From positions 1 to 63,139 of the forward strand of contig NZ_CALEMI010000018.1 of the NCBI RefSeq assembly GCF_937910895.1: DNA of 63,139 nt. The letters are read 5' to 3'. Source of the DNA: an uncultured Dokdonia sp. (GTDB taxonomy: Bacteria > Bacteroidota > Bacteroidia > Flavobacteriales > Flavobacteriaceae). Shown here in pieces: positions 28,998 to 33,556 of the stretch. Positions within the stretch are counted from its first letter, which is position 1, and the number at the start of each line of letters is the position of its first letter. The notes beneath the pieces are model-generated. The model did no database searches and was not told the DNA's origin. It saw only the letters and a program-made list of their open reading frames with translations. The position numbers and the translations under genes were made by a program.

Positions 28998-29176
28998 ATT
29001 TCCGCGAAGGCGGAAATCTTATTGCTTATTGCACTCGCAAAAGCCAGGTATTTTTTATTATTATATTCACCCACACACTTCGACAAGCTCAGTGTGACAT
29101 TCTTAGTAGGTTATTTTTTTATTGGAAGCTTTCTCTATAAAAACACCTCCCTCAATCCCTCCTTATTAGGAGGGAA
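28998..29176. repeat. Cluster of three different hairpin repeats between metH and metF
   Basis: Three imperfect palindromes sit in a row: ATTTCCGC-GAAG-GCGGAAAT (28998-29017); CACAC-TTCGACAAGCTCA-GTGTG (29074-29096), a REP-like type also inserted in metH; and CCCTCC-TTATTA-GGAGGG followed by AAGTTTT (about 29154-29176), structurally like the terminal repeats of the DUF559 insertion. They could attenuate metF expression or stabilise the upstream mRNA. Confidence 0.6.
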
Positions 29177-29191
29177 GTTTTCTGTTATTTA

Positions 29192-32100
29192 TCAATCTGC
29201 AATGTTGGGGGCTAACCATTTTTCCGCTTTCGCGAAAGCAATCCCTTTCCGCTTAGCAAAATCTCTCACTTGGTCTTCTTTTATTTTTCCTAACCCAAAA
29301 TAACGTGCTTCTGGATGCGCAAAATAATACCCGCTAACACTTGCTGCTGGCCACATCGCCAAGCTATCGGTAAGCGTCACACCTATACTTTTTTCTACAT
29401 GTAATAATTCCCAAATCGTTTCTTTTTCTAAATGATCTGGACAGGCTGGGTATCCCGGTGCTGGTCGAATACCTTGGTATTTCTCTTTGATAAGTTCGTC
29501 GTTTGCGAGCGTTTCATCGGTAGCATATCCCCAATGTTTTGTGCGGACTTCTTTATGGAGGTATTCTGCAAAGGCTTCGGCGAGACGGTCTGCGAGTGCT
29601 TTGATCATAATGGCGTTATAATCATCTAATGCTTCTTCAAATTCTTTTGCTTTTTCTGCGGTTCCAAAACCTGTGGTTACACAAAAAACACCTATATAAT
29701 CTTGTAATCCGCTTTCTTTTGGAGCAATAAAATCGGCTAGGGCGATGTTTGGTTTTCCATCTGCTTTTTGAGATTGTTGGCGTAGGGTTCTGAATACTCC
29801 CTCTGTCCTCTTAGCTTGTCCTTCGACAAGCTCAGGGTGACAATTTGTACTCCTTTTTTGATGTGAGTTCTCGACTGCGCTCGAACGGACAAGAATATCA
29901 TCATCATTGACGGTGTTTGCTTCAAAGAGTCCGAATGTTGCTTTGGCGGTGAGCCATTTGTCATCAAAAATTTGTTGAAGCATTTCTTGAGCATCGGCAA
30001 ATAATTCGGTGGCTTGGTTGCCTACAACTTCGTCGGTTAAAATGTCTGGATATCGTCCGTGTAGATCCCAACTTCTGAAAAATGGACTCCAATCTATATA
30101 ATCTTCGAGTACACGGAGATCGAGTGCTGAAATGGTTTGTATTCCCAATTGTTTTGGCTTAACAATATCTTCTGCCTTCCACGTGATTGAAAATTTATTG
30201 CTCCGCGCCCTTTCTATCGAAACATATTTCTTAACGCGTTGTCTGTTGTTAAAGCTTTCGCGAAAGCGTGTATATTCTTCTTTTAAATCATTTTTAAAGG
30301 TGCCTTTGGAATCCTTTTTCAATAAATCTCCTACCACAGTTACCGCACGTGAAGCATCATGTACGTGTACGACCGCATTTTTATATTCTGGATCAATTTT
30401 TACAGCGGTATGTGCTTTGCTGGTGGTGGCGCCACCAATCAAGATGGGAATTTTAATATCTTGACGTTGGAGTTCTTTGGCGAGATACACCATCTCATCT
30501 AGCGACGGAGTGATCAATCCGCTTAATCCTATAATATCTACTTGATGTTCAATAGCGGCGGCAATGATTTTTTCTGGTGGCACCATTACACCTAGATCTA
30601 TAATTTCATAATTATTACAGGCTAAGACCACCGAAACGATGTTTTTTCCAATGTCATGAACGTCGCCTTTTACGGTTGCCATTAATACTTTACCGTGCCC
30701 CCCAACCCCCGAAGGGGGAGTTTCAGACTCAAGCGCTTCCAAAATCTCTTCCAGAACGGTGTCAATCTGATGTAGCACTTGATGATTTGTAAAACGAATA
30801 ACTTTAAAACCCTTAGCTTCTAACCAATCCGTTCGTTCTTGATCACTCGTTTTATTTTCGGGTAATTGATGGATTGATCCATCTACTTCAACAATCAAAT
30901 TCTTTTTAAGACATACAAAATCAGCAATAAACTGACCTATAATATGTTGCCTTCTGAATTTAAATTCTTCTAAATTTTTACCAGCTAAAGCATTCCAAAG
31001 TATAGCTTCTGCCTCTGTAGGTTCATTACGCATTTTTTTTGCGTGGCTTTTAAGTAGCCCATACAAAACTGGATGTGCCGTTTGCCACGCTTGCAACTCC
31101 CCCTTTGGGGATCGGGGGGCTCTTTTTGCTTCTTCGATGTATGGTAAAAGGTACGCCACTGCTTTTTTCATGACTCTGGCACTTTTTACGACTTGTGGCA
31201 AGAACATCTTTCCGCTTCCAAAAAGGTCGCCTACCACATTCATACCTGTCATTAAATGTCCTTCGATTACTTGAATAGGCGCCGATACGGATACACGTGC
31301 TTCTTCTACATCTTCTACTATATATTTATCAATTCCTTTGACTAGTGCTCTTGTGATTCGGCTTTGAACGTCTTCTTCTCGCCAAGCTTCGGCTTCTTTT
31401 TCGGTGACTACTTTTTGACCTACGGTTTCAGCAAAATCTAATAAACGTTCGGTGGCGTCTTCTCTTCGGTTGAGAATAACATCTTCCACACGTTCTAATA
31501 AATCTTTTGGAATATCATCATATATCTCAAGCATCGCAGGGTTGACAATTCCTATGTTCATTCCTGCTTTAATGGCATGATATAAAAAGACAGAGTGCAT
31601 GGCTTCACGCACAGCATTATTTCCGCGAAAGCTAAAAGAAACGTTACTCACTCCTCCACTCACACTACAATGTGGTAAGTTAGTACGCACCCATCGGGTG
31701 CCTTCTATAAAATCAATCGCATTTAATTTATGTTCATCCATTCCTGTTGCGACAGGAAATATATTGAGGTCAAAAATGATATCTTCTGGCGGGAAGTTGA
31801 CCTCATCTACAAGTATATCATAACTGCGTTTTGCAATTTCTATACGTCGGTCGTAGTTGTCTGCCTGTCCTACTTCATCAAATGCCATAACAATCACCGC
31901 AGCGCCATATCTTTTGATAAGCTTTGCTTGCTGTTTAAATTGTGTTTCTCCTTCTTTAAGACTTATGGAATTTACGACACATTTTCCTTGCACTACTTGA
32001 AGACCCGCTTCTATGATTTCCCATTTGGAGCTGTCGATCATAATAGGAACACGCGAAATATCTGGCTCGGCAATGACAAGGTTTAAGAACTTGACCATCG

Positions 32101-32341
32101 CTTCTTTGCCATCAATCAATCCGTCATCCATATTGATATCGATGATCTGAGCGCCATTTTCGACTTGATCACGTGCAACGGATAGTGCTTCATCAAATTT
32201 TTCTTCTTTAATGAGTCGTAAGAACTTTTTTGATCCCGCTACATTGGTACGCTCACCTACGTTAATGAAGTTACTTTCTGGCGTAATTATTAAAGGTTCT
32301 AAACCAGAAAGCTTTAAATATCTTGGAGTTTCTTTGCTCAT
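29192..32341 (-). CDS. metH: Methionine synthase large subunit with two in-frame insertions
   Basis: 1049 residues carrying the methyl-THF (pterin), cobalamin and reactivation domains of MetH. Pterin domain about 20-290 ([13 protein letters not shown]). Helical cap about 310-405. Cobalamin domain about 550-680, with the cobalt-ligand His in GDVHDIG (H562) and [13 protein letters not shown]. AdoMet activation domain after about 720. Residues about 407-549 are a DUF559 endonuclease-like domain absent from normal MetH, and 819-849 are a translated REP-like repeat. Two dispersed palindromes are also read through (RFRES at about 693, AFAKAE near the end). Ordinary equivalents need about 170 fewer residues. 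It overlaps the small subunit gene by four bases. Whether the enzyme works with the insertions is untested, but every frame is intact. Confidence 0.92.
29226..29239. repeat. Dispersed palindrome in the 3' end of metH
   Basis: Translated as AFAKA near the C-terminus of MetH. Confidence 0.9.
29795..29887. repeat. REP-like insertion inside metH coding sequence
   Basis: Contains CTTCGACAAGCTCAGGGTGAC (29821-29841) and a second unit, TTCTCGACTGCGCTCGAACG (about 29869-29888). Translated as RSSAVEN...CHPELVEG, it interrupts the conserved run between the ANTVNDDDI strand and [10 protein letters not shown]. coli MetH has only about ten residues here. Confidence 0.75.
30254..30267. repeat. Dispersed palindrome in the metH interdomain linker
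   Basis: Read as RFRES between the cobalamin and activation domains. Confidence 0.9.
30698..31119 (-). mobile_element. 422-bp DUF559 element with 25-bp terminal inverted repeats, inserted in metH
   Basis: The two ends (30698-30722 and 31095-31119) are inverted copies matching at 22 of 25 positions. Each is itself a hairpin (CCCCC-GAA-GGGGG and CCCC-AAA-GGGG) flanked by CCCCCC and AGTT. Between them, in frame with metH, lies a DUF559-type PD-(D/E)XK endonuclease-like domain: [30 protein letters not shown] (Asp near 474), [11 protein letters not shown] (Glu 485, Asp 487, His 491) and GFKVIRFTN. The predicted catalytic residues are intact. No intein splice motifs are seen at the ends. The reading frame stays open through both terminal repeats. 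Confidence 0.8.
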
Positions 32342-33333
32342 AATGCTATCGGTCTTGGGGTGACTCCTTCTACAATACTAGCAATCGCTTTGATATGTGC
32401 TGGGGTGGTGCCGCAGCAACCGCCTACAATATTTACTAGATTTTTATCTACGTACTTTTTAATTTGAGATGCCATTTCTTCTGGGGTTTCATCATATTCT
32501 CCAAAGGCATTGGGTAATCCTGCGTTAGGATGGGCTGAAATTCCAACTTCTGTTCTGGAAGCGATGGCTTCTAAATGGGGTTGTAATTGTTTGGCTCCTA
32601 GGGCACAATTAAACCCTACAGACAACAACGGAATATGAGAAATAGAAATTAAAAAGGCTTCGGCGGTTTGTCCAGAAAGGGTTCTTCCTGAAGCATCGGT
32701 AATGGTGCCACTGATCATGACGGGAACATCACTATTACGCTCTTCTTTTACTTCTTCGATGGCGAAGAGACAGGCTTTTGCGTTGAGGGTGTCAAATACG
32801 GTTTCAACTAGGAGGACATCTACCCCTCCGTCTAGTAAAGCCTCCACTTGTTGTTTGTATGCGATACGGAGTTCGTCAAACGAGATAGCACGATATCCTG
32901 GGTCATTGACATCTGGCGACATACTGGCTGTTTTATTGGTAGGACCAATACTTCCTGCGACAAAACGTGGTTTGTGTGGTTCTTTTTCGGTAAAGGATTG
33001 TGCGACTTCTTTGGCAATTTTCGCGGAAGCGTAATTCAAATCATACACATAGGCTTCCATCTCATAATCTGCCATGGCAATCGTGGTACTTGAAAACGTA
33101 TTAGTCTCCACAATATCTGCACCTGCAGCAAAGTATTTACGGTGTACCTCGGCAATTGCTTCAGGCTGGGTGAGCGAGAGCATATCATTGTTTCCTTTTA
33201 CAGAAAGATGGAAGTCTTTAAAACGCTCTCCTCTAAAATCCTCTTCTGAGAATTTATAGGCTTGTAACATCGTTCCCATAGCGCCATCCAAGATAAGAAT
33301 GCGTTCTTTAAGAGCTTTATGTAGTGTATTCAT
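32338..33333 (-). CDS. metH1: Methionine synthase small subunit (homocysteine S-methyltransferase domain)
   Basis: 331 residues, the Hcy-binding module of MetH as a separate protein. It has DGAMGTMLQ at the N-terminus, [12 protein letters not shown], the zinc Cys in GFNCALGA and the zinc pair in [11 protein letters not shown]. Split MetH is common in Bacteroidota. It overlaps the large subunit by four bases, ensuring matched synthesis. It is the first gene after the SAM riboswitch. Confidence 0.92.
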
Positions 33334-33433
33334 TTTTAGTTTCTAGTCAATCATTAAGCGCAACAGATATTGAAAAGAAATAGAGATGCAACCCCTTTGG
33401 AGCTTACAGCTAAAAATATATATCAAGATGATG

Positions 33434-33452
33434 TATAGGTAATCGACCTATA
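33434..33452 (-). promoter_or_regulatory. Hairpin in the metH riboswitch expression platform
   Basis: TATAGGT-CGATT-ACCTATA follows the aptamer directly on the minus strand. There is no T run after it, so an intrinsic terminator is not obvious; it may work through an alternative pairing. Confidence 0.4.
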
Positions 33453-33457
33453 GTTGT

Positions 33458-33556
33458 GTTATCTATACCTAAAACGGATAGAATGTAGCACCTTCTTTCA
33501 AGGGAAAGGGTTGCTAAGGTTTCACAGGGTCTAATCCCTCCACCTTTCTTGATAAC
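33458..33556 (-). promoter_or_regulatory. SAM-I (S-box) riboswitch upstream of metH
   Basis: On the minus strand the conserved S-box elements appear in order: TTATCAAGAAAGGTGGAGGG, then GACCCTGTGAAACCTTAGCAACC, then AAGGTGCTA. The closing helix P1 forms from GTTATC (33551-33556) and GATAAC (33458-33463). It lies in the leader between the promoter at 33587 and the metH start at 33333. Binding of SAM should lower expression of metH and probably metF. Confidence 0.92.

Follow-up and report, generated by a model that had tools for sequence, protein, structure and literature searches.

The methionine synthase gene (metH) of the window, by which we mean the whole 63,139-nucleotide stretch of DNA analysed, from an uncultured Dokdonia sp., contains a 424-nt in-frame element (30697..31120, minus strand) in which a DUF559 coding unit lies between a palindromic end and an inverted copy of that end. 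We consider it probable, if far from settled, that this element belongs to a family of unspliced, protein-embedded, homing-like mobile elements of about 420 nt, copying mainly into the same site of empty alleles. Sequence comparison shows the anatomy of the element, its open frame, a local gain, recurrence at fixed sites, purifying selection, one transfer between species and a sister copy at a second site. A tolerated, unspliced and homing-like DUF559 element had been proposed in the initial annotation, and our searches support that reading, with units of the same family present in other genes and genera and no splicing domain found.

The left end, in the MetH sense (31092..31120, minus strand), is palindromic (AGCCCCCCGATCCCCAAAGGGGGAGTT...) and represents a sequence type that is dispersed in the genome; the right end (30697..30725, minus strand), CTCCCCCTTCGGGGGTTGGGGGGC, is its inverted copy. 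The two arms are 29 nt each and 86% complementary, slightly longer than the 25-bp terminal repeats with 22 matches that had been annotated for a 422-bp segment, and no other inverted repeat of at least 12 nt occurs in the 1101 nt that we searched. Each arm is a palindrome in itself, preceded by a run of C. Between them lies an endonuclease-like DUF559 domain with its conserved motif residues (30728..31051, minus strand; 129.6 bits, positions 4-109 of 109). In the 1049-residue MetH, Pfam places DUF559 (PF04480, 124 bits) at residues 431-538, flanked by B12-binding_2 (327-398) and B12-binding (550-643), in the linker before the cobalamin domain. This match and the retained motif residues bear out the apparently intact PD-(D/E)XK-like domain described earlier.

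The element spans about 140 codons, in which Pfam finds DUF559 and its weak relative MTES_1575 and nothing else, and the MetH reading frame is open throughout across it. The in-frame position at the linker agrees with the initial annotation. One detail differs from a clean insertion: compared with congeners, a native linker of about 12 residues has been replaced rather than interrupted. In a structure model of full-length MetH (pTM 0.49, with domain placement uncertain), two of the four stretches with pLDDT below 50 are the element junctions, which fits the expectation for a looped-out domain.

The host gene (29192..32341, minus strand; 1049 amino acids including the element) encodes the folate, cap, cobalamin and activation modules. 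The homocysteine module is encoded by a separate open reading frame that overlaps the MetH start (32338..33333, minus strand; Pfam S-methyl_trans, 337.5 bits). MetH is thus split in the window, while the MetH open reading frames of Marivirga, Emticicia and others measure 1371-1645 amino acids and that of locus L197 is fused with the homocysteine module according to Pfam. The window's genome (G000) is 99.74% complete and has a single MetH, and a search of it with the Pfam profile PF01717 gave no MetE match. On these grounds the interrupted metH should make the working enzyme.

Our genus sample comprises 18 genomes including that of the window, and the MetH site is readable in 16 of them. The unit is present in the window only; in the other 15 a linker of about 12 residues takes its place. 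Close relatives do not share the domain, whereas all of them carrying it, with no terminal repeats, had been named in advance as an observation that would speak against an element. The host gene itself is closest to its congeners. In 14 of the 15, the N-terminal part of MetH is 0.86-0.92 identical to that of the window (best carrier of the unit, 0.859) and the C-terminal part 0.75-0.86, a part for which none of the 68 carriers from other genera exceeds 0.725. The exception, G006 (0.80/0.71), has a MetH no closer to the window's than the carriers' MetH. We used only identities to the window here and set aside a correlation of insert and host distances over 69 rows, which was distorted by short rows such as L213. 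With 15 of 15 congeners lacking the unit and a host gene that groups with them, the gene is native and the unit is not; the DUF559 unit is a local gain in the window's MetH.

These data bear on the idea that DUF559 is an ancient MetH domain that serves the cell and has been passed down vertically, with many losses. The wide occurrence of the domain in Bacteroidota and the similar dS of unit and host in several close pairs are in keeping with it, but the native linker in 15 of 15 congeners would require repeated precise loss, the same kind of unit occurs in unrelated enzymes, and among the matches listed DUF559 is found in MetH of at least 7 of 299 genomes in our family sample, in which at least 154 genomes carry DUF559 in some form. 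The left end, moreover, is maintained as DNA in two reading frames. Among MetH units at this first site, codon reading gives P-K-G-E/T for the left palindrome in 39 of 72 and P-K/E-G-G in 25, with eight ambiguous; the right core is read in one frame in 62 of 67. A sequence maintained for its peptide would not spread over frames, and we conclude from the codon readings that the left palindrome is kept as DNA and not for its peptide. We regard an ancient domain as very improbable.

Still less credible is removal of the segment by splicing, as an intein or intron, or its bypass by the ribosome. A nuclease inside a conserved gene is what inteins and introns would lead one to expect, and we counted in the same direction a DUF559 gene that a Thermosynechococcus paper (PMC9403480) mentions where it treats intein-containing genes. 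Against this, neither Pfam nor NCBIfam finds a splicing domain in MetH, Rfam gives no match up to E 1 in 29100-33500, and 71 of 74 MetH carriers have an open frame both before and after the unit. On the domain searches, the Rfam search and the open frames, intein, intron and bypass were rejected. The three other carriers comprise two that are cut by a contig end and one that is broken: in L179 (F. akiainvivens) the frame is lost at the right poly-G, which is either a real break or a homopolymer error.

The MetH carriers come from a scan of named genomes with a MetH-type profile. It yielded 491 confirmed stretches, and our counts refer to the best 80 of these. Among the best 79 loci, 74 lie in MetH, in Flavobacteriaceae, Marivirga, Emticicia and others; the five remaining loci have as hosts, by Pfam, a CoA transferase (three loci), a homocysteine S-methyltransferase protein and a urocanase. 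Pfam also gives examples of in-frame units in LeuRS, IleRS and RecG and, at the protein ends, in HisD (C-end) and HemD (N-end). In L197 the homocysteine domain of the fused MetH contains an additional DUF559. The search for such units inside other flavobacterial genes that the initial annotation had suggested thus turned up in-frame members of the same family in other genes and other genera. Three loci labelled Bifidobacterium breve, Nitrotoga and Saccharibacteria (L202, L225 and L232) have Bacteroidota-like MetH or urocanase units, and these labels are probably binning errors. N-terminal HemD fusions with palindrome types of their own occur in several genera (L002, L029, L030, L032, L038, L118, L131, L137, L157 and L158), with the HemD host confirmed by Pfam in L002 and L131.

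The nuclease is strongly conserved. Residues E16, E56, D58, H62 and D71 are present in 89 of 89 copies and D45 in 88. Of 14 pairs, 13 have a dN/dS of 0.04-0.22, some of them with high dS, and one gives no computable value. These figures show purifying selection on the DUF559 nuclease. A structure model predicted for the unit (pLDDT 81.7, pTM 0.75) gives as its top two Foldseek matches in the PDB 3hrl (1.2e-7), a DUF559 structure, and 3r3p (E 2.7e-4, TM 0.72 by target), the homing endonuclease I-Bth0305I. Mitoribosome chains, AbaSI (0.015) and Vsr (0.17) appear among the later matches, and a profile search likewise matches 3hrl, and 3r3p weakly (E 0.0012). The predicted structure therefore has an EDxHD/Vsr-like catalytic fold matching that of I-Bth0305I. 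As a candidate defence system the unit gave only weak PADLOC matches (a methyl-directed restriction enzyme, 8.6e-05; a homing endonuclease, 0.0037) and weak PHROGs matches, and this assignment was rejected.

Copies of the unit sort by host gene. On a tree of 76 DUF559 domains with seven host labels we count six changes of host, the minimum possible, against a mean of 40.8 after shuffling (0 of 200 shuffles as low). These labels were assigned by reading the sequences, and part of the host proteins are confirmed by Pfam; the tree has long branches and only 109 columns, so its finer forks are weak. The MetH copies form a clade (100/99), as do the HemD copies (100/98), and the 39 copies in genes other than HemD lie on one side of a branch. 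The LeuRS copies do not form one clade and account for three changes by themselves.

A second MetH loop, in the activation domain (site 2), is also in use, and Flavobacterium copies at site 2 form a separate clade (100/97). In the trees and AU tests of the MetH sites, from which L168 and L122 were left out, G199 has one unit at each site and the two are sister copies (99/90), and the closest partner of the L179 copy at site 2 is a copy from site 1 (99/90). A single origin of the ten site-2 copies taken together is rejected (AU p 0.004). From the sister copies in G199 and the rejected single origin, we conclude at the level of the phylogeny that the unit jumped to a second MetH site. Within the window, this same loop holds a second palindrome-derived in-frame insert, identified by alignment (29815..29893, minus strand), with two different palindromes, CCTTCGACAAGCTCAGG and TTCTCGACTGCGCTCGAA (at 29820 and 29868); a DUF559 unit stands at the site in other genomes. 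CCTTCGACAAGCTCAGG is found at 43 places in the genome at up to three mismatches, against none for the control, and one more copy lies in the window at 29077. At MetH site 2 of G017 (L055:2313-2358), two inverted copies of the CCCC palindrome stand in frame as a bare pair, with no nuclease between them.

DUF559 occurs in 14 of the 18 genus genomes, with 31 copies. Five congeners (G007, G011, G014, G015 and G017) have units in LeuRS, in frame just before the Pfam editing domain, at 50-59% amino-acid identity. The LeuRS site is readable in 16 genomes, and the 11 without the unit comprise eight with a plain short loop and three with another short palindrome. The latter are G000 (L095), G003 and G010 (L098 and L093 among the loci), in which a different short palindrome is in frame. 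With a DUF559 unit in five congeners and another palindrome in three, the same LeuRS loop hosts different palindrome families.

The clearest case of movement is the pair of LeuRS units in G015 and G017. They differ at 7 of 421 nt, while their flanks differ at 26 of 200 and 25 of 200 nt (~13%), with eight and nine mismatches already in the adjoining 50 nt, so that the high identity ends at the palindromes. At third codon positions the units agree in 99 of 102 and the hosts in 228 of 349 (p 8e-13), the best of 276 pairs. Our pair test covered 68 MetH and 24 LeuRS rows; site-2-only, contig-cut and non-MetH rows were left out. Pairs that pass the Bonferroni limit in the same direction number 3 of 276 for LeuRS and 3 of 2278 for MetH, and none passes in the reverse direction. 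The three MetH pairs represent one related trio (L203, L211 and L227). The remaining two LeuRS pairs join divergent sequences and could be explained by composition, which leaves G015/G017 as the one very clear pair. The contrast between 7 of 421 nt in the unit and ~13% in the flanks argues that units move, and by this comparison at least one whole unit has moved recently between species with its edges at the palindromes. Transfer across orders was considered for Marivirga, which a quick tree places inside Flavobacteriia, a placement that the data do not force (AU p 0.175).

Such a sharply bounded block of identity could also be expected if the unit were a passive passenger, swapped as a segment by natural transformation and homologous recombination with the palindromes as homology arms and the nuclease playing no part. 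Different palindrome families at the same loops fit that account as well. A dead passenger should nevertheless decay, whereas here every motif residue is kept in at least 88 of 89 copies, with low dN/dS, and we judge this explanation quite improbable.

The palindromic ends are found far beyond the MetH unit. With up to three mismatches allowed, the 4.8-Mb genome G000 has the end sequence at 21 places, the element's own two ends included, compared with none for the reversed control, and several of these places form inverted pairs without DUF559 (L005, L009, L015 and L018). An ungapped inverted-repeat score of at least 12 is reached around 61 of the 118 DUF559 copies inside genes and around 10 of the 26 standalone ones, but in only 6 of 459 control spans from the same loci and in none of 154 shuffles (Fisher p 6e-42 for intragenic and 2e-10 for standalone copies). 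Same-place duplicates (L168 and others) were left out, and L122 and L208, which are one sequence, were both counted, both scoring low. The threshold is missed by 57 of the 118 intragenic copies and is reached by only one of ten HemD fusions. Genome-wide dispersal and inverted repeats far above controls and shuffles speak against random hairpins, the other observation that the initial annotation had thought damaging to an element.

Both ends could be parsed in 61 of the 107 elements offered, with a median length of 425 nt. No consistent target duplication, a feature whose definition the initial annotation had recommended, was found among them: at equal offsets 47 of the 61 have no direct repeat of 3 nt or more, and the longest, of 6 nt, occurs once. 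GTAG or CTAC lies near an outer end in 4 of 61 and CGTC or GACG in 3 of 61. A classical insertion sequence was rejected on the lack of a consistent target duplication and on the content of the unit, which has DUF559 only and no transposase. Among the loci listed, L194 and L227 have a left MetH-unit end in which the loop of the CCCC palindrome apparently encloses a different palindrome.

The dispersal raises the chief rival to our explanation, in which the palindromic ends drive movement. The DUF559 protein would act on palindromes, as cruciforms or single-strand hairpins, and mobilise any pair of them, site specificity reflecting mere tolerance; RAYT transposases are thought to mobilise REPs in such a way. 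Many standalone DUF559 genes also lie between palindromes, with subfamilies having palindrome types of their own, the CCCC palindrome is dispersed in G000 with inverted pairs that lack DUF559, G017 has its bare in-frame pair, and the sole Y1 transposase match of G000 adjoins a different palindrome. Random palindrome jumps would not, however, give copies that sort by host gene with the minimum of changes. Across the genus, the number of palindromes is only partially associated with the cognate DUF559, with counter-examples in both directions. G007, G011 and G014 have LeuRS units, yet their palindrome matches are their own unit ends only; G002 and G013, with 3 and 12 palindrome copies, gave no sign of a unit in MetH or LeuRS (the LeuRS of G013 is not readable, and both have other DUF559). 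A second palindrome type is clustered in three genomes without its DUF559 subfamily and absent from one genome with it. The standalone genes and bare pairs thus favour this rival, while within the genus the number of palindromes does not track the nuclease in any simple way; we consider this rival unlikely, and the link of the unit to genome-wide palindrome dispersal only suggestive. Mobilisation of the CCCC palindrome by a RAYT was rejected on the single Y1_Tnp match in G000 being flanked by another palindrome. This match (L082:1416-1936), RAYT-like, has its own flanking palindrome, CCCCGAGGCTCTGCCTCGGG.

In the homing-like explanation that we prefer, a DUF559 nuclease of EDxHD/Vsr fold is enclosed by two inverted palindromic repeats, the whole element being in one frame with the host. 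The unit would be translated as an extra MetH domain in the flexible linker, with no removal at the RNA or protein level, and would spread for the most part by being copied into unit-free alleles at the same permissive site, as homing endonucleases do. The nuclease would cut either the empty site or an extruded palindrome, and repair would copy the unit with its palindromic ends; occasionally the unit may jump to a new loop. Splicing would not be needed, since the unit uses tolerant loops. Homing usually leaves a co-conversion tract. No co-conversion of flanking host DNA is seen in the G015/G017 pair, with its eight and nine mismatches in the adjoining 50 nt, which together with the small size of the unit and its palindromic ends argues against textbook homing. 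Of the homing-like mobility suggested initially, recent movement is thus borne out at LeuRS; DNA cleavage would be its presumed basis, and the expected pattern is only partly seen.

The units share with EDxHD homing endonucleases such as I-Bth0305I a catalytic fold, weak sequence kinship, site-tied lineages and empty alleles in relatives. They differ in having palindromic ends, no surrounding intron or intein and no extended DNA-binding region that we could see, while EDxHD homing enzymes are described as having extra DNA-binding regions and homing endonucleases as being freed to invade conserved genes by association with self-splicing introns or inteins (PMC3943268). Like inteins, the units stand in frame in conserved proteins, contain a nuclease domain and form site-specific lineages; unlike inteins, they have no splicing domain that we found, lie in loops and linkers and would be kept in the protein.

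With Rickettsia palindromic elements and intragenic REPs, as described (PMC3733652), the units share palindromic DNA that is tolerated in frame inside proteins and the presence of different palindromes at about the same site in relatives. In contrast to the elements described there, which have no enzyme, the units enclose a conserved nuclease between their palindromes and move in one piece. The REP/RAYT system (REPtron) is similar in having an enzyme gene between palindromes that are also dispersed, with inverted pairs, but its enzyme is an HUH tyrosine transposase rather than a PD-(D/E)XK-type DUF559, and the few GTAG or CTAC motifs near the outer ends are a further difference. Vsr and stand-alone DUF559 proteins belong to the same nuclease superfamily; VsrA of Caulobacter, by its description (PMC12907096), is stand-alone and tied to cytosine methylation, not to gene insertion.

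A description of such an element was not found among the matches listed in the literature searched (titles and abstract openings), nor was any account of a MetH insertion in a full-text search, both covering few subscription journals. The element resembles both palindromic elements and EDxHD homing enzymes, does not show the whole of the defining features of either, and has no description that we found; it may therefore combine two known kinds, and there is a real chance that it deserves a class of its own. More tentatively, palindrome-bounded nuclease units lying unspliced in essential proteins could constitute a new class of element in which DUF559 is the missing mobilising nuclease of palindromic repeats that lack a RAYT, a possibility that we would not yet favour. 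Such units seem to invade conserved genes without splicing, by way of tolerant loops. They would give DUF559 a role, would account for the additional domains of LeuRS, MetH, RecG and other proteins, and would offer a candidate enzyme for palindromic repeats without a known mobiliser.

A further palindrome, TTCGCGAAAGCG, occurs at 12 places on the plus strand of the window, from 3476 to 60421, and similar ones lie between CCCC pairs elsewhere.
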